From: Actinomycetota bacterium
GTDB taxonomy: Bacteria > Actinomycetota > Acidimicrobiia > Acidimicrobiales > JAMCQF01
Assembly: GCA_023379605.1 (NCBI GenBank)
Contig: JAMCQF010000161.1
Span: 1 to 40,018, forward strand
Direction: 5' to 3'
DNA: 40,018 nt
Shown here: positions 4,135 to 17,673 of the stretch, piece after piece
How the letters are laid out: the number at the start of each line of letters is the position of its first letter
Position numbering within the stretch: the first letter of the stretch is position 1
Position numbers and translations under genes: made by a program
Notes under the pieces: model-generated
What the model was told of the DNA's origin: nothing
Seen by the model: only the letters and a program-made list of their open reading frames with translations
The model's database searches: none

Positions 4135-4722
4135 TCAGCCGGCTGCTGTGGCTCGTTTATGTTCACGATGGACAGCCTCAATTCCAATGTCAGCGTATGT
4201 GAGCATGGGAAAATACGGTACGTCAACGCTTGCGAAGAAGCCCGACGCCTCGTTGCCCCGATCGACCAGCGCCGTGGCAAAGACAACCTTTGCGCCCGCT
4301 AGGCGGGCTCGCTCATAGGCCAACTTGATAGAGCCACCTGTGGTGACGACGTCGTCTACGAGCATTACCCTCGAGCCAGCGGCGATTCGGGCACCTTCTA
4401 CCCAGAGGTTCGTTCCCCTGCCCTTTGGCTCCTTGCGAATAAGGAACCACTTGCAACGCGCTGCTTGGGATATGGCAAAGGTGAAAGGTACCGCGCCAAG
4501 CACCAGGCCCCCGACCGCGTCGAACTCGACACCAGCCTCCAAGGCCGCTGCATGCATGGCAGCACCTACGAAGTCGAGGTCCTCTGGATCATCGACAGCC
4601 AGCTTCCCGTCGATGAAATCGCAGCTCCACTCACCTGATGCCAGCTGGATCGGCTCTGGAAGGCGCTTTAGGACATCGGGCTGATTGATCAGCTCGCAAA
4701 GGCGCGCCTTGAACTGGCTCAA
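4135..4722 (-). CDS. pyrE: orotate phosphoribosyltransferase
   Basis: PRPP-binding motif VMLVDDVVTTGGS plus overall PyrE-like organisation; TTG start. Confidence 0.82.
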   Translation of the reverse strand: MSQFKARLCELINQPDVLKRLPEPIQLASGEWSCDFIDGKLAVDDPEDLDFVGAAMHAAALEAGVEFDAVGGLVLGAVPFTFAISQAARCKWFLIRKEPKGRGTNLWVEGARIAAGSRVMLVDDVVTTGGSIKLAYERARLAGAKVVFATALVDRGNEASGFFASVDVPYFPMLTYADIGIEAVHREHKRATAAG

Positions 4723-4850
4723 AGCAGAGACGCCCTTTCAGCAAGGGACTTCCAAGATTGACACCTTATGATCCTGTAGTCCCGTTGCGCCATCCCGTCC
4801 CGAGCCTTCCTGTAGACCTACGCACGCAATCTCGTGCGCTCGTATCCCTA

Positions 4851-4894
4851 AGTTTAGTCAAAGCTGGCTGGAAGTTTAGTCAAAGCTGGCTGGG
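4851..4894. repeat. Tandem 22-bp direct repeat, 2 copies
   Basis: AGTTTAGTCAAAGCTGGCTGGA / AGTTTAGTCAAAGCTGGCTGGG, one mismatch, intergenic upstream of pyrE. Confidence 0.9.
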
Positions 4895-4950
4895 AGCTGC
4901 TGTCTTCAAGGTTGTGAGCGCTAGAGTAAAGCGGCATCATCTAACCCGCG

Positions 4951-5751
4951 TCACACTGCGGGCCCACCCACCATAGGCCGCCGGCCCCCATATATTACGT
5001 GGTCGAGCTCTTTTAGGAAGACATCGATAGCCTCGAAACCAGCAGCGCCCAAGAGCTCGATCTGAGGAGCCAGGGGCATCATGTGACGAATGTGGCTCTC
5101 ATAGCGTCTCTGTTCCTCGGGGCTACGGTTGGCACGCTTTTCGGCTGCCGCAGGGTCGCGCCGGTCCATGGCTCTAAGCCAGGCAGCTTGGACCTCAGGA
5201 TCCTGAGCGATTACCGGGTCATAGTTCAGGTACCACCCTCCTGGCTCGAGATGGGCGAAGATCTCCCTGAACAGGAGCCCCTTGCGCTCATGGGGAAGGT
5301 GATGTACGCATAGAGAGCTGATCACAGCGCCAAGATCGAAAGGAATCTCGCTTCGCCAATTGCCACTGGCAAGGTCGAGCTCTACGTAGGTGTACCGGTC
5401 CTTGTAATCGGAGAGCTCCCGGTGCGCCTCGCTTATCATCTGCAATGAATAGTCGCTCAGTATTGCCTGGGCCTTTGGGTAGCGGTCGAGGACCGCCCTG
5501 GCCGCCGCGCCGGTCCCAGCCCCAAGGTCGAGAAAGGTGAACTGATCTTCGTAGCCAAATGGCAGGAGGTCAGCCATCAGCCTCCTATGGCCCACCCTGG
5601 TGCGCTCACGCTCGTCTGCTGTTGAGATCCACTGGGAGATTCCCTCGTCGGACTTCCAGATGTCATCATCAGCATCATTGCAGTGATCCATGTCAGCAAA
5701 GATAGCTCCCGAGGCCCAAGCGATGGTCCATAGTCGAGCGAGTTCAGGCAT
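4951..5751 (-). CDS. class I SAM-dependent methyltransferase
   Basis: Motif I FLDLGAGTGAAARAVLDRYP, motif II-like AVISSLCVHHLP. True start may be internal (MDHCNDADDD). Confidence 0.82.
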   Translation of the reverse strand: MPELARLWTIAWASGAIFADMDHCNDADDDIWKSDEGISQWISTADERERTRVGHRRLMADLLPFGYEDQFTFLDLGAGTGAAARAVLDRYPKAQAILSDYSLQMISEAHRELSDYKDRYTYVELDLASGNWRSEIPFDLGAVISSLCVHHLPHERKGLLFREIFAHLEPGGWYLNYDPVIAQDPEVQAAWLRAMDRRDPAAAEKRANRSPEEQRRYESHIRHMMPLAPQIELLGAAGFEAIDVFLKELDHVIYGGRRPMVGGPAV

Positions 5752-5913
5752 CTGCCTGCGTGGTTTAGAGGGCTAATCCGCACAGCTATGCGGGTGGTGC
5801 TGGGTTAACGGAGGCTCCTCTGGACCGGAGAACCATGCAACTGGTAGGCAGGAGCGGCACCAGCGAGGCCCAGGCTATGGGGATTCTCGCGGTCAGGCAA
5901 TTGGAGGTAGCAC

Positions 5914-7937: not shown

Positions 7938-9041
7938 CTAGGCGGAGCAGCGGTTTGGTCCCAGCTCAAGTCTTCGTAGAGCCACCGGTGGTATGCGTGG
8001 GGCTCCCATGTTGGCATGGATAATCTCCACATAGTTAGGAGGGCGCTCGGTGGTTCGAGCCGAAGCCCATCGGATAAACTCCGACTGGGAGTAGCTTAGC
8101 GGAGCCAGGTCCACTCGTAGGCTCCCGATGGTTTTAGCTACAGGCTCACCGGGTCGGACCTTGACCGCATCTCCATAGTGTGCGGGCAGCACCACCGTAT
8201 CCTCGGCAAGCGTGAGCACCCTGTTGGACAGCGAGTCATGCAGGTTACGAGCGAACTCCTCGGCTCGCTCGGCTAGGTCAGGCCTACCAACGCCATCTAC
8301 GAATAGCGTGTCACCAGTTAGGACAAACTTGTCCGATACGACAAGTACGGTGGAACCCTCCGTGTGGCCCGGCGTGTGCATCGTTGTCACTGCTACCTCT
8401 ATACCACCTGGGAGGATGAACGTATCTCCATCCGCGAGAGGGATGAAGGGGAAGTGGAAAGTGTCAGCTGGGTTCAGGTACAGCGATGCACCAGTAGCTT
8501 GTGCAAGGCTGCGAGCGCCAGAGAGATGGTCCGCGTGCAAATGGCTGTCCATGACCCTTGTTATCTTCCAACCATGTCGGGCGGCGAGCTGTATGTAGAT
8601 ATCGATGTCCATAGATGGATCCAATGCGAGCGCCTCTTCACCAGATCCGAGAACATAGGAGAGACAACCTTTGGCCCTCCGGCGCACCTGGACCAAGGTC
8701 GCAGAACCGACGGTCATCTCTACCTCATCGTAGACGGTTGCCCACCCGCTCATCCCTCCAACCAGGTTTGACACTGTCCACCCAGCTCTAGCGAGCGCCT
8801 CGCTGGCAGGAGCGGAGCGGCCACCGACAGCACAAAGCACCACGACATGCTTGTCAGTGGGAATCTCCGACGCTCTGGCTGCTAGCTCCTGCAATGGGAT
8901 GTTTACAGCCCCAGGGATCGACCATGCAGAGACTTCGTCGGGCTCGCGCACGTCGAGTAGGAACGGCTCGGAATCGGTGCCGAGCATAGAGGCCAGCTCG
9001 ACGGGATCAAGCTGGCGTACCTCTAAATCTTGCAGAGACAT
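7938..9041 (-). CDS. rhodanese domain fused to ETHE1-like persulfide dioxygenase (MBL fold)
   Basis: N-terminal rhodanese with CAVGGRS active-site loop, then MBL domain with SHLHADHLSG, TPGHTEGS, LTGDTLFVDGVGRPDL, LPAHYGD. Confidence 0.88.
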   Translation of the reverse strand: MSLQDLEVRQLDPVELASMLGTDSEPFLLDVREPDEVSAWSIPGAVNIPLQELAARASEIPTDKHVVVLCAVGGRSAPASEALARAGWTVSNLVGGMSGWATVYDEVEMTVGSATLVQVRRRAKGCLSYVLGSGEEALALDPSMDIDIYIQLAARHGWKITRVMDSHLHADHLSGARSLAQATGASLYLNPADTFHFPFIPLADGDTFILPGGIEVAVTTMHTPGHTEGSTVLVVSDKFVLTGDTLFVDGVGRPDLAERAEEFARNLHDSLSNRVLTLAEDTVVLPAHYGDAVKVRPGEPVAKTIGSLRVDLAPLSYSQSEFIRWASARTTERPPNYVEIIHANMGAPRIPPVALRRLELGPNRCSA

Positions 9042-9090
9042 CTGGATCCTCCCTCTTCTTGATTCGCCAACAGCGATTCATTTACATTAT

Positions 9091-9112
9091 CATATACCCT
9101 ACCGGGTATATG
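9091..9112. promoter_or_regulatory. CsoR/CstR-like operator in the promoter of the rhodanese-PDO gene
   Basis: Perfect 9-bp inverted repeat CATATACCC-TACC-GGGTATATG; minus strand reads TTGCGC-18 bp-TATGAT with the dyad in the spacer, about 50 bp upstream of ATG 9041. Confidence 0.65.
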
Positions 9113-9224
9113 GCGCAAGAGAGGCCATCGGCTTGGTATTGGGAGGCCACAGCTCGGCGGGCTCGGTTGAGAGGCCGATTGCATGGTCGAGTGAGCCCAT
9201 GCAAGCTCTACGTTGCCCTTCCTT

Positions 9225-12200
9225 TCAGCCAATCGGCTCCATAGCCGGTCCGGAGCGGGCTATGGCGACCTCGTCAGTGCCCAGGTAGGAGGAAACCACC
9301 ATAGGGTCAGCCAGCACCTTCTCTGGGCTGCCCTCTGAAATTACCTGGCCTAGGTGCATGCAGATGAGGCGGTCTGCTATGGAGCTTATAAGGGGTATGT
9401 CATGCTCGATGACCACCATGGTGGCCCCGGTCTGCTCCCTAAAGGCCAGTATCAGTTCAGCTAACGCTTCGGACTCCCTTTGGGCTATCCCTGAGGACGG
9501 CTCGTCCAACAGCAGCACCTGGGGGCGGTGTGCCATCGCACCAGCCAGCTCCACTATGCGTCGCGTGCCTGTGGAAAGCTCCGAGATGAAAGCGTCCTGG
9601 TAGCGTTCCAGGCCCATCGCGGATATGAGATCTTCGACATGGGCTTTCAGCTCCGCCTCTGAGTCCAAAGACGCTCCCAGCCCCAGTATGCAGGCTATGG
9701 GCTCCCTAACCCTTACATGGCGGTCAAAGCCCACCGCCAGGGCCTCTTTCACCGTCATGGATGGGAACAGCCTGGCGTCTTGGAACATCCGCCCCAGGCC
9801 GTGCTCAAAGCGCAGGAAGGCAGGCAGGGCGGTGATGTCTTGTCCCCCCAGGGCCACGAGCGCGCTCGGTGAGCTCAAAAAGCCCGAGCAGAGGTCAAAC
9901 AGGGTGGTCTTGCCCGCTCCGTTTGCCCCAATAATGCCGACTATCTCGCCCTTGTTGGCATAAAAGCTCACCCCGTCAAGTGCAGCCACGCCCCCAAAGT
10001 GCAGGGTTGCTTCCATGACCTCAAAAGCAGCCGGTTCTGGGTGAGAGCTGGATGGACGAGACGGTACCCCCAGCTCTTTGTGACCAACAGGCCCTTCTAT
10101 AGGTCCATATGGCACATTTCGGTCCAAAAGGCTGCTTGCATTGGATGTCTTTCTTGCCCCAGAGCGCAAAAAGATCGATCTTGCGAGCTCGGGGCGCTCT
10201 TTTAGCTGGGCGGTGGGCCCGCTGAAGCGGACCTGGCCTCGCTCCATGAACACGGCGCGCTCCGCCAAGGCGGTAGCAACGTTTAGGGACTGCTCCACTA
10301 CCACGACAGTGGTGCCTTTCTCTGCGAGCTCTCTCACCACTGCTATCAGTTCTGCCACAACAGCTGGCGCAAGTCCCAAGGAGAGCTCGTCTACCATCAT
10401 GAGCTTGGGCTGGCACAAAAGAGCCTGCGCGATGGTGAGCATCTGCTGCTGGCCACCTGAGAGGTCTGAGGCCCTGGTTGAGAGCTGGCTGGAAAGAGAC
10501 GGGAAGAGCCTGAGCATCTCCAAGGTGTGCTCTGCTAGGTCCTGGTGATCCTTCCTTCTAAGCCAGCCTGCCAGCCGAAGGTTCTCAGCGACGGTGAGCG
10601 AGCCGAACACGCCCCTGCCCCCAGGCACGAGCACAAGCCCTGCTTTCACACGCTGTTGTGGGCTGAGCTTGGTTATGTCCTGCCCGTCAAAGATCACCTT
10701 TCCCTGCTCGGGGCTTACAAGGCCCGAGATTGCCTTTAGGACCGTGGACTTGCCCGCCCCGTTGGTACCGAGCAGGGCGAGGATCTCGCCATGGTCCACA
10801 TTCAGCTCAATGCCAAAGAGCACCTGGACCATCCCGTAGCTCGCATCCACACCTGAGCAGGTGAGCATAGAAGCTCTGCCATCGCCACCTTGGGGTCCTG
10901 GGATCTCCGCAAGCACGGCTCCCTTCGAGCCGGCCTTTGCTTGCATAGCTCCGTCTTGTGCCAAAAGGGCCCGAAGATCGCTTTCATCTGCCAGAGCGCT
11001 ACCATTGGGCGTTGGAGTAGAGGCGCTTTGGCTGAAGTGATCTTCCACAAAGGCCTGCTGGCCAAAGAGCGAGGGGACAGAGAGCCCCTTTTTCTTTGCG
11101 AGAGCTTTCAAGGTGTAATCACGTATCCCATATACAAGCTGGCCCAGCCCAGCTGGTGCGACCATTAGCAAAGCGAGCAGCCCTGCGCCTGTGGCGAGCA
11201 GCTGCGCGGCACCTGAGAGGAAGTACTGGGCGCCTTCTACGTATATGGCCCCAAGAAGGGCCCCAGGGAGCGACCCCAGCCCCCCCACCACCACCATCGT
11301 GAACACCACCAGGCTCTTCTCGGGGTTGAAACCTGAGAAGCTGATGCCTTCCAGCCCTATCGCATAAAGGGCTCCCGCCATGCCCGCAAGAGCACCCGAA
11401 AGCCCAAAGGCAGTCATGCGAGCCCTCTTTGGGCTTATCGAGTATGCAGCGGCTCCCCTTTCGTTGTCACGTGCCGCGACCACCGCACGCCCGGCTCTGG
11501 AGCGGCGGAAGTTGCGTGCGAGAAGGTAGGAGATGGCGAGTATGAAGATGCAGAACCAGTAAAAGACAGCCGGTGAACCAAGCGATATCCGCCCAAACAG
11601 ATAGGGGCGGGGCAGGAAGGAGGGTGTGAGGGCAGGAAAATAGGCGCTGTTTAGCAAGTACTCAGAGACCGGCACGGCAAAGGCAAGGGTGACCACAGCC
11701 AAGAAAAGCCCTTGGACCCTAAGGGCTGGGATGCCTACCACAACTGCACAGAGCGCCCCCACGCCAGCTGAAGCGAGTATTCCAACAAATAGGTCCGCTC
11801 CTGTGTGCACCAAAAGCGCAGCGGTTGTGGCAGCCCCCACCCCTGCAAAGGCGAACTGGCCCAGGCTTATCTGGCCGGCCCAGCCCGTCAGCACCACAAG
11901 CGATACCGCTATGACGGCGTATATGGCCATATAGGAGGCCAAGATGAGCTTGGGGCTGCCAAAGGCGACCGGGAGTGCAACTACGACTCCTGCCAGGACC
12001 AGGACCCCTGCCAGCTTGGCTACGCGCAACTCAGGCAGCGCCTTTAGAACCGCAGGCACCGGCCTTACCTCTCTAAAGGCCACATAGCTCCCCATGCCGG
12101 AGTCATCTACCCTGGTGGCCCTCGGCTTTGCTACAACCAGGGCAAGTAAAACCAGCGCGAACAGAGCCACGTCTACAAAAGCGGAGTTCGGGTATGACCA

Positions 12201-13097
12201 GAACACGGCCTGCTCGAAGACACCTATTGCTATGGAAGCTGCAAAGGTGACAGGAAGGCTTGTCATCTGGCCTACAACAGCTGCAGCCAAAGGGGCCAGC
12301 AGCATCTCTGGCCCAGCCAGCACCCCGAGCTGTGGACCCAAGATGGGAGCTGACAGCATAGAGGCGAGCCCCGACAGCCCCGCTGCTGTCATCCAGGTGG
12401 CAAGTGAGAGCCTCCTTACCGGGATGCCGAGCAGGCTGGCACGCTCGGTGGAGTCAGCAGCCCCCCTTATTGCTATGCCCAGGTCGGTGCGGCCAAAGAA
12501 CCACCACAGGCCGACTACCACCAAAGGAACTACCACTACAACCACCACGTGGTTGCCGTTGAAGACTATGGGGCCCACATGGAATGTGAAGTTAAACGGC
12601 GTGGTAAAGCTAGCAAGGGAGGACAGGTGCGGGACCAGGCTCGGAAGGCCCAGCTCGGCAGCCCCGAGCAGCTGGGCTACCCCAATGGTCGCAACCGTCA
12701 AGATAAGCCTTGGAGCGTTGAAGAACCTCCTTACCACGCTTATCTCTATCGCCGCCCCTGTGGCCACCGCAGCGATGAGCCCGATGGGAAGCGCTGCGAA
12801 GTACGGCAATCCCACACCTGCCACCAAGATCACAGCGACCGTAGCGGCAAGCCCGCCGATCTCCACCTGGGCGAAGTTGACCACCCTTGCGGAGCGGTAG
12901 ATAAGCACGAGCCCCATGGCGGTAAGGGAGCTGAGCGCGCCCAGCACCACCCCCAACAGGATCACCCCGACGGGGAGCCCGTTGGGGAGCGTCGCTGAAG
13001 CTATGGCAAGTGCTGCGAGGCCTGCAAGAGCTGCGGCGAGCCATCTGCGAGCTGAGGGGCCCACCTTTTCCAGGGCACTTATATGTCCATTGGCCAT
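9225..13097 (-). CDS. single-chain branched-chain amino acid (HAAT/LIV)-type ABC transporter: LivH-LivM-LivF-LivG fusion
   Basis: 1290-aa uninterrupted ORF: LivH-like permease (GLVLIYRSARVVNFAQVEIG), LivM-like permease (LTGWAGQISLGQFAFAGVGA), LivF-like ATPase (LLGTNGAGKST, LSGGQQQMLTIAQAL), LivG-like ATPase (IIGANGAGKTTLFDLCSGF, LLLDEPSSGI). Confidence 0.93.
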   Translation of the reverse strand: MANGHISALEKVGPSARRWLAAALAGLAALAIASATLPNGLPVGVILLGVVLGALSSLTAMGLVLIYRSARVVNFAQVEIGGLAATVAVILVAGVGLPYFAALPIGLIAAVATGAAIEISVVRRFFNAPRLILTVATIGVAQLLGAAELGLPSLVPHLSSLASFTTPFNFTFHVGPIVFNGNHVVVVVVVPLVVVGLWWFFGRTDLGIAIRGAADSTERASLLGIPVRRLSLATWMTAAGLSGLASMLSAPILGPQLGVLAGPEMLLAPLAAAVVGQMTSLPVTFAASIAIGVFEQAVFWSYPNSAFVDVALFALVLLALVVAKPRATRVDDSGMGSYVAFREVRPVPAVLKALPELRVAKLAGVLVLAGVVVALPVAFGSPKLILASYMAIYAVIAVSLVVLTGWAGQISLGQFAFAGVGAATTAALLVHTGADLFVGILASAGVGALCAVVVGIPALRVQGLFLAVVTLAFAVPVSEYLLNSAYFPALTPSFLPRPYLFGRISLGSPAVFYWFCIFILAISYLLARNFRRSRAGRAVVAARDNERGAAAYSISPKRARMTAFGLSGALAGMAGALYAIGLEGISFSGFNPEKSLVVFTMVVVGGLGSLPGALLGAIYVEGAQYFLSGAAQLLATGAGLLALLMVAPAGLGQLVYGIRDYTLKALAKKKGLSVPSLFGQQAFVEDHFSQSASTPTPNGSALADESDLRALLAQDGAMQAKAGSKGAVLAEIPGPQGGDGRASMLTCSGVDASYGMVQVLFGIELNVDHGEILALLGTNGAGKSTVLKAISGLVSPEQGKVIFDGQDITKLSPQQRVKAGLVLVPGGRGVFGSLTVAENLRLAGWLRRKDHQDLAEHTLEMLRLFPSLSSQLSTRASDLSGGQQQMLTIAQALLCQPKLMMVDELSLGLAPAVVAELIAVVRELAEKGTTVVVVEQSLNVATALAERAVFMERGQVRFSGPTAQLKERPELARSIFLRSGARKTSNASSLLDRNVPYGPIEGPVGHKELGVPSRPSSSHPEPAAFEVMEATLHFGGVAALDGVSFYANKGEIVGIIGANGAGKTTLFDLCSGFLSSPSALVALGGQDITALPAFLRFEHGLGRMFQDARLFPSMTVKEALAVGFDRHVRVREPIACILGLGASLDSEAELKAHVEDLISAMGLERYQDAFISELSTGTRRIVELAGAMAHRPQVLLLDEPSSGIAQRESEALAELILAFREQTGATMVVIEHDIPLISSIADRLICMHLGQVISEGSPEKVLADPMVVSSYLGTDEVAIARSGPAMEPIG

Positions 13098-13103
13098 GGC
13101 AGC

Positions 13104-14150
13104 TCAGCTCGAGGTGCTTGAGCCACTCGATAGCACGCTGTAGCCAGAGCCCTCTATGACGCTCCAAAGCTGTGCATATCCAGGGGAGCTCTTGGTGCTC
13201 AAGAACGCGATGCCAACAGTGAACCGATCGCCCAGATAGCTATGGATGGTGCTGGCGGCAACAAGCACGGCGGCGGCTTCGCCAGCAAGTTGAGGACCAG
13301 TAGCAGCTGAACGAGGTTCTGCTACTCCCGCGGCGACGGTGATGTTATGAGGGAGCGACTTTGCAACGGCTTTCAACCAACCTCTAAGGGTTTGGGTGGC
13401 AGCTGGGCTGGAGGTGGCAGAAGGCGACGGAACCAAGATCACCTCAACGTTTTCTCCGCTCGCAGCCATCTCAGAGATCGCCCTGGTGAGACTAGGTGAG
13501 AGGAGCCGGCCCTCTGGAAGCGCCAGTTCAGGTGCCATCTTGCCTGGTTGTGCAGCAGATCCTGGAGCAGAGCCAGGGCTCTTGTCATGGATCGAGGCGC
13601 AGGCAGTGTTGATGGCTTGGATCAGGGTCGCTGGGAGGGCAGAAGTGGGAAGCTGCTGGACCTGCACAGGGCAGGGGGACTGCGCAGCTGGTTGCGGTGG
13701 TTTTGGAGGGCTGCTTCCAGAGGAGCTCCCTGTGCTAGTTGGGCTCGAGCCGGTCGAGCTCGCTTGGACCGGTGTGTCGGAGGAGTCCGAAGAGCCGTTG
13801 GCTCCGCTAGAGGGATAGCTGGTTCCATACTGGTTCGAAATTGCTCCGTAGGGGGCAAATGCTGATCCGAGAGAGGGCGCCGACTGTTGCGAGGAAGGAG
13901 AGAGACTGCTATTGGAGCCGGTACTTCTCGAGAATCCAGCCGGCGTGGTTGTGCCGGTGTAGCCGCTGGTCGGCCTGAAGGCCAGAGGGACAGCTGGTTG
14001 GTGGGATGAGGTACTTGGGAACATGGTAACCACCAGAGCCAAGAACCCAGCCCCGAGCGCGAGCGGGTAATAGCGTCTGGCCAGCTCGCGTAGGTGTTGC
14101 CGTGCCAGCTTGGCGACGGTGGCTTCATCCAGCTTTTCAGGCTCGTCCAT
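13104..14150 (-). CDS. membrane-anchored protein of unknown function with Ser/Pro-rich linker
   Basis: One N-terminal TM (YYPLALGAGFLALVVTMF), low-complexity linker, about 190-aa C-terminal region I do not recognise; ends 6 bp before the transporter gene. Confidence 0.75.
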   Translation of the reverse strand: MDEPEKLDEATVAKLARQHLRELARRYYPLALGAGFLALVVTMFPSTSSHQPAVPLAFRPTSGYTGTTTPAGFSRSTGSNSSLSPSSQQSAPSLGSAFAPYGAISNQYGTSYPSSGANGSSDSSDTPVQASSTGSSPTSTGSSSGSSPPKPPQPAAQSPCPVQVQQLPTSALPATLIQAINTACASIHDKSPGSAPGSAAQPGKMAPELALPEGRLLSPSLTRAISEMAASGENVEVILVPSPSATSSPAATQTLRGWLKAVAKSLPHNITVAAGVAEPRSAATGPQLAGEAAAVLVAASTIHSYLGDRFTVGIAFLSTKSSPGYAQLWSVIEGSGYSVLSSGSSTSS

Positions 14151-14203: not shown

Positions 14204-16048
14204 CTAATGGCCAAAGCAGTTGAGCTGCTGACGAGGCCCACCATAGGCAGCCTGGTCGTCGAATGGGTACCACTTGCCTCCGTCGCAGGCTTGCCAAGCC
14301 CCCTGCTTTCCATCGAAGTTGCTTGTAGCAGACGGGCTCCACCAGCTGACTGGGCCGGTCGCCACGGGATCGAACACATCCTGACCGTAGACCCAGGTTC
14401 CGAACTCCCCGTTGCCTTCAGAGGGCGGTAGTGAGAACATGCCCTGTTCGAAGCTCTGTGGTGTGAGGTCCGGGCCTGCTGCCTGCAAGCCCGCGAAGAG
14501 CTGTATCAAGGTCTCGTAGGCTACGTAGTAGTACTGCTCTGCTGGCGGGTTGCCGTGGTCTGCCAGCTGGAAGGCCTTGTAGGCCTCGGTCTGGCTGTTG
14601 ACTGGGTACTGCGGACCGTTGGACAGCGCGTGGTCCCACTGGTCTTGAGCGAAGTTGCGGGTGTCGGGATCTCCCCAGTAGTCGGTCAGCCACTCCGGGT
14701 AGTAGTCCTGCTGGTCTGCTGCTTTCGACATGAATATGGGGATGAGCGGGTCACAGCCGCATATGACCGTGGTGACGCCAGCCGCTTTCATCTGGGCCAC
14801 CATGCTCGTGGCCTGTTGCTCGAAGGTGGTGAGGTTGATCGAGTAGCTCTCACGCTTGGCGATGCTCACGCCGCACTTGGAGAGACCATTTTGAATGTCG
14901 TTGCCGTCGTCCATGTAGACAGGGTTGACTGGGGTGATGAGGCCAAACTTACGAACGGTGCTCGAGTACTGCGGACTGAAGATGGCATTCATTCCCGCCA
15001 TGCGCTGGCAGACGGTGTTGACGAGACCCTTTGCCGAGTTGGTGCCTGTGGGCGTGTATGCAGAGTATTCATATGGCGCGTACTGCTCGTACCATGACTG
15101 TGGCATGTAAGTTCCCCCCATGGCGATAATGTGCTGCTCAGCCAAGTCCTGCTGGTAGGGCTGCGCAGAGAACAGCGGGAAGGTCACGTCCGCAAAGGCA
15201 CCCAGGCTGTATGCGGTAGCGGCGTCTGCCTGAGCGCCCTGGAGATCCTCACCCTGGTCCTCTTCTAAGTAGTCTCCCTGTGCCTGGAAGGTCTTGAGCA
15301 CCACTTTGCGACCGTAGAGCTCGTATTGGGTATTGAAGAACTTGATGTAGGTCTGCATGTCCTGTATGTAGGCGGGATCGTTGGGGAACGCAGATCCTGC
15401 CAAGGATTCGACGGCAGATTGCTGGGCAGAGTTGGGAATGGCGTAGCTGAGCGTTATGGTCGTGGGGGTCACCCCGTGTGCGGTCGCCCCGCCATTATTG
15501 CCATGGAACGCGGGCACACAGTTCGGCGCGTACACAGACCAGCTGAACTGGCGCACCCCAGGCCCGCACTTGATACCCGTTACTGCGACCCCTGAGCTTG
15601 CAGAGCCAGAGCTGGAGGTACCGTTGGAGGTCGGTCCTGAGGAGCTTGCATAACCGGCTGAGCCAGAGGAGCCGCCCGATCCTAGTGTGCTTGAGTACCC
15701 TCCTGAGCTGCTTGAGCTACCTGCTTGGTAGTTGCTTCCCTGAAGAGAGGAGCTTGAGCTTCTGAGATGGGATCCACGGAGGCTGGAGCGGCCTGACCTG
15801 GTAGATGCAGGGCCTGCCTGGTTGGTTGTCAGCTGGCCGGTCGCTCCTGGTATTGGAGCTGCCAGAGCGACGATGAGCCCTAATGCAGCCGTGCATATTG
15901 CCAGCGGGCTCCAGCGAGCAGCGACCTTTAAGAGGTAGCGACGGGTCTCTAGGTCCAAAAGGCGTGGTGAGCTTGGGTAGGAGGCCCGGCTCTTAACTCC
16001 AGGCGGCCCTTGGCTGCCATATTGTCCCCCAGAAGCTGGCTGATCCAC
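14204..16048 (-). CDS. membrane-anchored ABC transporter substrate-binding protein (LIV-type periplasmic-binding fold)
   Basis: N-terminal TM, Ser/Gly-rich linker, then a type I binding-protein-like domain (GVTPTTITLSYAIPNS..., VTTVICGCDPLIPIFMSKAADQQ, YVAYETLIQLFAGLQAAGPDLTPQSF); upstream of the transporter. Confidence 0.82.
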   Translation of the reverse strand: MDQPASGGQYGSQGPPGVKSRASYPSSPRLLDLETRRYLLKVAARWSPLAICTAALGLIVALAAPIPGATGQLTTNQAGPASTRSGRSSLRGSHLRSSSSSLQGSNYQAGSSSSSGGYSSTLGSGGSSGSAGYASSSGPTSNGTSSSGSASSGVAVTGIKCGPGVRQFSWSVYAPNCVPAFHGNNGGATAHGVTPTTITLSYAIPNSAQQSAVESLAGSAFPNDPAYIQDMQTYIKFFNTQYELYGRKVVLKTFQAQGDYLEEDQGEDLQGAQADAATAYSLGAFADVTFPLFSAQPYQQDLAEQHIIAMGGTYMPQSWYEQYAPYEYSAYTPTGTNSAKGLVNTVCQRMAGMNAIFSPQYSSTVRKFGLITPVNPVYMDDGNDIQNGLSKCGVSIAKRESYSINLTTFEQQATSMVAQMKAAGVTTVICGCDPLIPIFMSKAADQQDYYPEWLTDYWGDPDTRNFAQDQWDHALSNGPQYPVNSQTEAYKAFQLADHGNPPAEQYYYVAYETLIQLFAGLQAAGPDLTPQSFEQGMFSLPPSEGNGEFGTWVYGQDVFDPVATGPVSWWSPSATSNFDGKQGAWQACDGGKWYPFDDQAAYGGPRQQLNCFGH

Positions 16049-16314
16049 AGCACGCTCCTCTCAATCCCCCTAGGAAGCCCGCCATTGCAGGCATCTACCG
16101 AGGTAACGAACGTCGAGCAGCTATCTTGCGGTCTTCCCATTAGGGGGAGCTGATGTGGTCTTATGGCCAAGACAGGCGGGCAGGGCATCGACCACAGGCG
16201 GTCATCTAGCCAGCACGAGCTGCTGCAAAGAGGTAGCGGAGGCTATGAGTGGCAACGCACCAGAGGTAGGAATCGCTAAAGGGCACTCTCAGAGGCTCTT
16301 GGTGGCTCCGTGTC

Positions 16315-17673
16315 GTGGAAAGCCGCGCCTCGGCAGGGCTTGCGAAGTATGCTCTCATACCGGCCATGGGGAAACGAATGTCAGCTGGGCCGCGGACCCC
16401 GGTGGAACAGCGCGAGCTAAACAGGCACCGACCAGCACCTCCGCCTCGTTCCCGCAGGCGTCCCTCTAAGGCAGTAGCTCGCAGGCGGTTGACCCTTGTC
16501 ATCTTCGTAGGGCTTGGGTTGGCAGTGGGAATTGGCTGGGCAATCCCATCTCAAGGCGGTGGGGAGCTCCCGGGCCGGGACCGACATGTCAGCCCAGCCC
16601 GACCCACAATGCACGCGGCAGCAGAGCCGGCTGCTGGCGTCGCCGAGGATATCCAGGTCACCTCGGTGACCCCACCAGTGGGAAGTCCTGCCATCTCACC
16701 TTTGGCGCTTTTCACAATAGAGACCTCTAAGCCAGTGGCTCCAGGCACTCTGCACCCTCAGCTCTCTCCTCAGGTTCAAGGCACCTGGAGCCAGCCCACG
16801 CCTACGGAGATAGTCTTCGCGCCCTCTAGGCCCCTGCCGTTCGGCTCCACTGAGACCCTGACACTTCCGTTTCCAAGTGCTTCAAGCAACAGGCCATCGC
16901 AGGGGAACACGCTCTTCCAGGCCACTTACCACGTCTCGGGGCCATCAGTGGTGCTGGCCCAGCTTCTCCTATCCGAGCTCGGGTATCTACCACTGCGGGT
17001 GGTGGGTCCTCCTGGAAGTGTCCCGGTAACTAACGAGACGAGCTCCTCAGCTGCGAATCTGCAGGGATACTTCTCCTGGCGCTGGCCCGACCTCCCGGCT
17101 GCGCTAAAGCAGGCTTGGGAGCCGGGAGTGGACACTGTTCTCACCAAAGGGGCGGTGATCTCCTTTGAGAGGGTACATGGCCTCACAACTGGGAGCTGGC
17201 CTATGTATGCCGGGACGATGGGGCCTCAGTTTTGGTCGACTCTTCTCTCTGCCAGCTCAGCTGGCCAGTACGATCCATTTGGGTTCAGCTATGCCCTTGT
17301 GACAAAGGACCCTTTGCCGGAGAGGATAACAGTATGGCACGAGGGGCAGGTGGTCCTAACCTCGCCTGTGAACACTGGGATTCCAGGAGGTGCAACGCCA
17401 GACGGGACCTTCCCTGTTTACCAGAGATACCGCAGCCAGACCATGCACGGGTTCACCGCCACCGGAGCTCCTTATGTCTACCCCAACGTCCAGTATGTCA
17501 ACTACTTCAAGGGGAACTTCGCCATCCATGCCTTCAAGCGAGCGGCATACGGCTTTCCCCAGAGCCAGGGCTGTGTAGAGTTGCCAATTGCAGCTGCCGC
17601 AACGGCCTGGAACTACCTGCATTATGGAACCCTTGTAACTGTCAGTGGCCACGTTCCAAAGGGAGCGCCTTAG
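16315..17673 (+). CDS. L,D-transpeptidase (YkuD) with N-terminal TM and Ig-like domain
   Basis: YkuD signature IHAFKRAAYGFPQSQGCVELP; TM LVIFVGLGLAVGIGWAIP; Ig-like VQGTWSQPTPTEIVFAPSRPLPFGSTETLTLPF. Start uncertain (16315 or ATG 16366). Confidence 0.87.
   Translation: MESRASAGLAKYALIPAMGKRMSAGPRTPVEQRELNRHRPAPPPRSRRRPSKAVARRRLTLVIFVGLGLAVGIGWAIPSQGGGELPGRDRHVSPARPTMHAAAEPAAGVAEDIQVTSVTPPVGSPAISPLALFTIETSKPVAPGTLHPQLSPQVQGTWSQPTPTEIVFAPSRPLPFGSTETLTLPFPSASSNRPSQGNTLFQATYHVSGPSVVLAQLLLSELGYLPLRVVGPPGSVPVTNETSSSAANLQGYFSWRWPDLPAALKQAWEPGVDTVLTKGAVISFERVHGLTTGSWPMYAGTMGPQFWSTLLSASSAGQYDPFGFSYALVTKDPLPERITVWHEGQVVLTSPVNTGIPGGATPDGTFPVYQRYRSQTMHGFTATGAPYVYPNVQYVNYFKGNFAIHAFKRAAYGFPQSQGCVELPIAAAATAWNYLHYGTLVTVSGHVPKGAP

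Follow-up and report, generated by a model that had tools for sequence, protein, structure and literature searches.

This study points to an anchored protein, here called X, as a probable ancillary subunit of a Liv-type ABC importer. X is encoded between an anchored binding protein (SBP) and a fused transporter (T) in the window, i.e. the whole stretch of 40,018 nucleotides analyzed, which belongs to a draft genome (G000) of 2.5 Mb and 74% completeness. We give about an even chance to the reading that X is a pseudo-glycosidase held by an anchor of the SBP type, with a structural rather than a hydrolytic role. Through the matched anchor, both X and the SBP would be docked next to the fused permease. 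The ectodomain would play no part in sugar hydrolysis; it might stabilize or space the complex, keep the SBP near the permease, or tether the assembly to the cell envelope.

The three genes follow one another on the minus strand in the order SBP, X and T, separated by 53 bp and 6 bp (Table 1), a spacing that is operon-like. The TGA codon of X is followed by GCTGCC and then by the ATG of T at 13097. This confirmed the original prediction of a protein of this size between the binding protein and the fused transporter, 6 bp upstream of the latter. Judging from its sequence, X is a real gene, because its C-terminal domain scored 54 bits against a family HMM built without window X, compared with at most 9.4 bits for 500 shuffles; a chance ORF was ruled out by the same comparison. 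The flanking genes encode a rhodanese/metallo-beta-lactamase protein downstream of T and, divergently oriented upstream of the SBP gene, a YkuD L,D-transpeptidase. A metabolic tie of either to the importer is not obvious.

Table 1 Features of the window and of related loci, with residues or nucleotide positions
Feature	Position	Strand	Basis or remark
SBP gene, 614 aa, anchored binding protein	14204-16048	-	no Pfam match
SBP anchor, residues about 33-68, judged homologous to the X anchor	15845-15952	-	anchor HMM
X gene, 348 aa, ATG start	13104-14150	-	ORF call and translation
X residues 1-50, N-terminal anchor (ELARRYYP, TM, FPST)	14001-14150	-	SBP-anchor HMM
X TM, residues about 28-46	14013-14069	-	within the anchor
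X residues 51-159, Ser/Pro/Gly/Thr/Ala-rich linker	13674-14000	-	composition
X residues 160-184, Cys pair (CP...C)	13599-13673	-	cysteine positions in X
X residues 205-348, predicted degenerate half TIM barrel	13107-13538	-	alignments and AlphaFold2
T gene, 1290 aa, LivH-LivM-LivF-LivG fusion	9225-13097	-	Pfam and NCBIfam matches
T LivH domain	residues 21-330		
T LivM domain	residues 381-690		
T LivF domain	residues 741-970		
T LivG domain	residues 1021-1285		
Rhodanese/metallo-beta-lactamase gene	7938-9041	-	
YkuD L,D-transpeptidase gene	16315-17673	+	Pfam
L036, paralogous SBP-X-T cassette			same genome, another contig; X full-length
L038/L112, X-T with divergent SBP			sister genus
L043/L109, X relative			beside cassette
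L053/L116, X relative			beside cassette
L021/L120, X relative			beside cassette, cut by contig end
L073/L146, X relative			order SBP-T-X
L118, SBP-type anchor, linker only, 286 aa	11334-12194		adjoins T; no recognizable ectodomain
L152, SBP-type anchor	5345-5659		adjoins T; no recognizable ectodomain
L163, SBP-type anchor	9903-11900		adjoins T; no recognizable ectodomain
L178, SBP-type anchor	15630-16376		adjoins T; no recognizable ectodomain
L098 enzyme-type gene	9206-10435		
L099 enzyme-type gene	8923-10239		
L102 enzyme-type gene	8362-11988		fusion with additional domains, among them another glycosidase-like region
L103 enzyme-type gene	4594-5889		
L104 enzyme-type gene	8720-9865		
L105 enzyme-type gene	8761-9984		
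L107 enzyme-type gene	8898-10013		

With regard to the transporter, BPD_transp_2 was found in two stretches of T and ABC_tran in two others (Pfam), and the ATPases best match LivF/UrtE and LivG/UrtD (NCBIfam), so that T has the two permease and two ABC ATPase domains that mark a Liv-type importer. The four-domain fusion is common in the order, being present in 43 of the 78 named SBP loci within the stretch examined. The SBP family itself occurs in 129 of 298 genomes of the order, and in many loci its gene accompanies T; the named loci that contain it come almost entirely from Actinobacteria/Acidimicrobiales MAGs. Its members form a large conserved family whose shared features are a TM anchor, a long linker of Ser and Gly and conserved cysteines, yet neither Pfam nor the PDB yielded a sequence match, even for an 11-member profile. 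T has an extra N-terminal TM. Compared by eye as a possible anchor module, this segment was rejected, being absent from the second cassette type described below.

X has a cytosolic N-terminus of ~27 residues preceding its single TM, followed by the linker and the C-terminal domain, as the original prediction had described. C160 and C184 are the sole cysteines of window X. A first Cys after the linker, mostly in a CP or CP.P context, and a partner Cys 22-121 residues further on were present in all 14 X relatives examined. At a threshold as lenient as E <= 1, window X matched nothing in Pfam or NCBIfam; it also had no PDB sequence match, and searches of families and the PDB with X and X-family profiles returned nothing significant. 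Related-locus searches from P0001 and alignment A2 either yielded nothing or lacked a conserved stretch to work with, and a literature search retrieved no paper describing such an importer component.

The layout that X was predicted to share with the binding protein extends to homology of the anchors. An HMM built solely from the SBP anchors of four-domain cassettes placed window X at rank 5 among 274 decoy N-terminal TM proteins (E 2.2e-8) and recovered it with E 2.5e-7 among 3818 ORFs. X proteins outrank nearly all of these decoys, and the interposed L152 and L181 themselves adjoin T. An HMM derived from SBP anchors in the second cassette type matches only the X of that type (E 1e-10 to 1e-11), and these X (L095-L101) were found only by the HMM of their own, different SBP anchor; the two aligned anchors read FRLWWRRAS...WIAVP and FRLWWRGAS...WIAVP. 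On sequence comparison, the anchor of X is homologous to that of its partner SBP, beyond a mere similarity of plan. Since the second cassette type pairs X and SBP with a different anchor, the anchors are, by the same comparison, cassette-matched in two cassette types. Most simply, the X anchor would have arisen when the 5' portion of the SBP gene was reused. Anchored proteins in cassettes also occur without an ectodomain (L118, L152 and L178). Because some T-adjacent anchored proteins lack it, the anchor seems to be the retained part and may matter more than the barrel. These proteins, together with L163, consist either of a linker only or of a Pro/Gln-rich cytosolic part with a C-terminal anchor.

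The C-terminal domain, which had been left unassigned, still has no significant family or PDB sequence match; profile comparison and AlphaFold2-Foldseek analysis of a relative place it in a TIM-barrel family. In hhalign, the X-family profile scored 62.5 (E 3.8e-8) against the profile of a set of enzyme-type lipoproteins, compared with 18.5 for the best of 60 column shuffles and 10.6 for the reversed profile. A second X set scored 59.0 (E 4.1e-7), compared with 20.9 for shuffled columns. The window C-domain alone reached 4.3 bits against the enzyme-type profile, which is below significance, and the kinship of window X to the enzymes is therefore drawn from its family. The AlphaFold2 model of the domain of L125, a full-length relative, comprises seven alternating beta/alpha units (pLDDT 74.3, pTM 0.73), and Foldseek returned 83 PDB matches for it at E <= 1e-3 with TM of about 0.4-0.55; the 50 listed include triosephosphate isomerases, GH5, GH10 and endoglycoceramidase, among others. 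The model thus suggests that L125 is likely a (beta/alpha) barrel, with no particular GH family assigned. The window C-domain (149 aa) was modeled as a half barrel (pLDDT 72.7, pTM 0.65), for which Foldseek gave no PDB match at E <= 0.001 and weak leads that are mostly TIM barrels. According to the alignments, window X ends where its relatives continue with beta5-beta8. There is a small chance that the truncation stems from misassembly in the window, as the relatives all come from draft genomes, nearly all of them MAGs; nevertheless, T is intact and begins 6 bp after the end of X. A second SBP was rejected as an identity for the C-domain, which shows kinship to the barrel family instead of similarity to the SBP core.

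The enzyme-type set, which also includes L189 and L191 and comes from the same order as the window host, is invariant for NE in beta4 (N177-E178), E in beta7 (before GW), W in beta8 (near the end) and Tyr-Pro after beta6. These residues follow the pattern of retaining glycosidases in clan GH-A; for the two Glu, see the work on GH148 (PMC5725463). Most of these proteins have a lipoprotein-like N-terminus without a long linker. No Pfam model covers the family, and a PDB sequence search with its profile gave only non-significant leads (E 0.37-1.4), namely the pollen allergen CJP38 (6jms), in which ESGWPS was aligned, and three xylanase chains. We take CJP38 to be a GH17-type protein and the xylanase chains to be of the GH10 type. 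The sequences suggest an uncharacterised GH-A-like family, named from its motifs rather than from a structure of its own.

In X, the acid/base NE is replaced in all rows examined. The ectodomain is thus, on the evidence of these alignments, a degenerate TIM barrel akin to the glycosidase-like lipoproteins that lacks the acid/base NE. That X could be an active glycosidase, releasing the importer substrate with unconventional catalytic residues, is very improbable in our view. Its kinship to the NE/QE lipoproteins would fit such an activity, as would the Glu that the L095-L101 subset keeps in alignment with the beta7 nucleophile and the enzyme-type gene L105, the sole member of the initial seven to adjoin an SBP gene. 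Against these points stand the loss of the beta4 NE in every X protein examined, the additional loss of the beta7 Glu in L125 and L146, and the end of window X before beta7, which removes the nucleophile half.

The original prediction's association with the transporter was borne out by the distribution of X. Besides the window, X relatives were found beside four-domain cassettes in six places. When the C-domain profile A2 was run against 298 genomes irrespective of location, all 12 barrel-bearing X genes lay in SBP/permease cassettes, and seven enzyme-type lipoproteins were also returned; L106, a weak match, was not convincing as a family member. In addition to the 12 there is L125, an X whose gene immediately follows that of an SBP. 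Five of the 12 (L095, L096, L097, L100 and L101), found in a single genus (three genomes), represent the second cassette type, which comprises a diverged SBP, then a LivH-LivM-LivG fusion in the four in which the contig continues, and a separate LivF where the contig extends far enough. Because the other seven were first found by looking beside SBPs, the location-blind evidence consists of these five and of the absence of barrel-bearing X elsewhere. Searches at the level of the class (395 genomes) and of the phylum (297 genomes) revealed no further anchored X, type being judged by eye from translated frames. No close orthologue of window X was found in other genomes. L002 is the true orthologue locus, and L003-L005 are weak matches. 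The cassettes and the matched anchor make the predicted accessory subunit likely; the alternative offered with it, a second ligand-capture domain, is not supported, the domain appearing to be a degenerate TIM barrel rather than a binding-protein fold.

Most four-domain cassettes lack X, which is therefore dispensable to the transporter. This bears on the main rival for the window copy, according to which X is a decaying relic. On this view an anchored protein akin to glycosidases would have lost its catalysis and, in this genome, half of its barrel, and would be disappearing, with only the co-transcribed anchor and linker surviving. We consider this rather unlikely. Besides the sparse distribution, the relic reading draws on the length of window X, which is shorter than the paralogue L036 and than L109, L112, L116 and L125, on a degeneration series from full barrel through the half barrel of the window to the linker only of L118, and on the codon-position G+C of the C-domain, which is flat compared with that of T and SBP. 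Nevertheless, window X has kept an intact frame, anchor and Cys pair, the operon spacing is tight, and the genome also encodes a full-length paralogue. The pairing of the same architecture with a different importer type through a different matched anchor further argues for a function of the family.

Inactive glycosidase domains are known in general to serve in binding. The dead barrel could accordingly be a lectin that still binds a cell-wall polymer or a carbohydrate and thereby either supplies the importer or keeps the complex at the envelope, a possibility that we judge quite unlikely. Full-length members keep the glycosidase-related fold with the catalytic residues lost, and a long linker suits a reaching domain. 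However, a half barrel offers no closed cleft, the cassette belongs with branched-chain amino acid importers rather than with those for sugars, and the poor conservation of the barrel among relatives (about 20-30% identity) is not what a conserved binding site would show.

The usual description of Type I ABC importers comprises permeases, ATPases and a binding protein. The Liv/HAAT and Urt importers resemble the present system in having two BPD_transp_2 domains, LivF/UrtE and LivG/UrtD ATPases and a clustered binding-protein gene. In contrast to them, the four transporter domains here form one polypeptide, the SBP, for which Pfam gave no match, is TM-anchored with a long linker, and one more anchored protein, X, is inserted. 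An additional anchored part that copies the anchor of the binding protein would extend the importer scheme, and it was seen in two differently built Liv-type cassettes. Relative to clan GH-A (GH5, GH10 and GH17, with GH148 as a divergent member; PMC5725463), the modeled L125 shares the fold, whereas the acid/base NE is missing from X and, in the window copy, so is the nucleophile half. The enzyme-type lipoproteins have the barrel family in common with the X ectodomain, but they keep NE, E and W, whereas X lacks NE and has a long linker and an anchor.

The closest parallel to X, read as an ancillary structural subunit, is found in metazoans. The ectodomains of the SLC3 proteins 4F2hc and rBAT are glycosidase-like barrels of the GH13 alpha-amylase family with no demonstrated catalytic role; they stabilize and localize an amino acid transporter, the disulfide-linked SLC7 carrier, independently of catalytic residues (PMC8537225). 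X has in common with them a cytosolic N-terminus, one TM, a glycosidase-related barrel outside and a link to an amino-acid-type transporter. It differs in being bacterial, in having an ABC importer as partner, and in its GH-A-like barrel, of which the window copy has half; it gave no Pfam GH13 match and shows kinship to the NE/QE family instead. By analogy, X may have reached the same plan independently, from a different glycosidase clan and without homology. We propose tentatively, as an idea that we doubt somewhat more than we believe, that bacterial importers recruited a dead glycosidase barrel independently as an anchored subunit on an SBP-type anchor, the window representing a late stage in which half of the barrel was already dispensable. 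If true, a dead glycosidase barrel would have become a transporter subunit a second time and independently, and the purpose of the 'fake glycosidase' ectodomains of 4F2hc/rBAT could be studied in bacteria. The new, uncharacterised GH-A-like family and the set of four-domain Liv fusions are named here as targets.

A minor observation concerns the reading frame. X and T share one frame, with only a TGA and two codons between them (13097-13106), and a common frame was found in four of five X-T pairs, compared with 8 of 28 SBP-T pairs. Readthrough to an X-T fusion was considered and rejected as weak, as SBP-T pairs are also in frame in those eight cases and no recoding sign was seen; the shared frame is probably due to chance.
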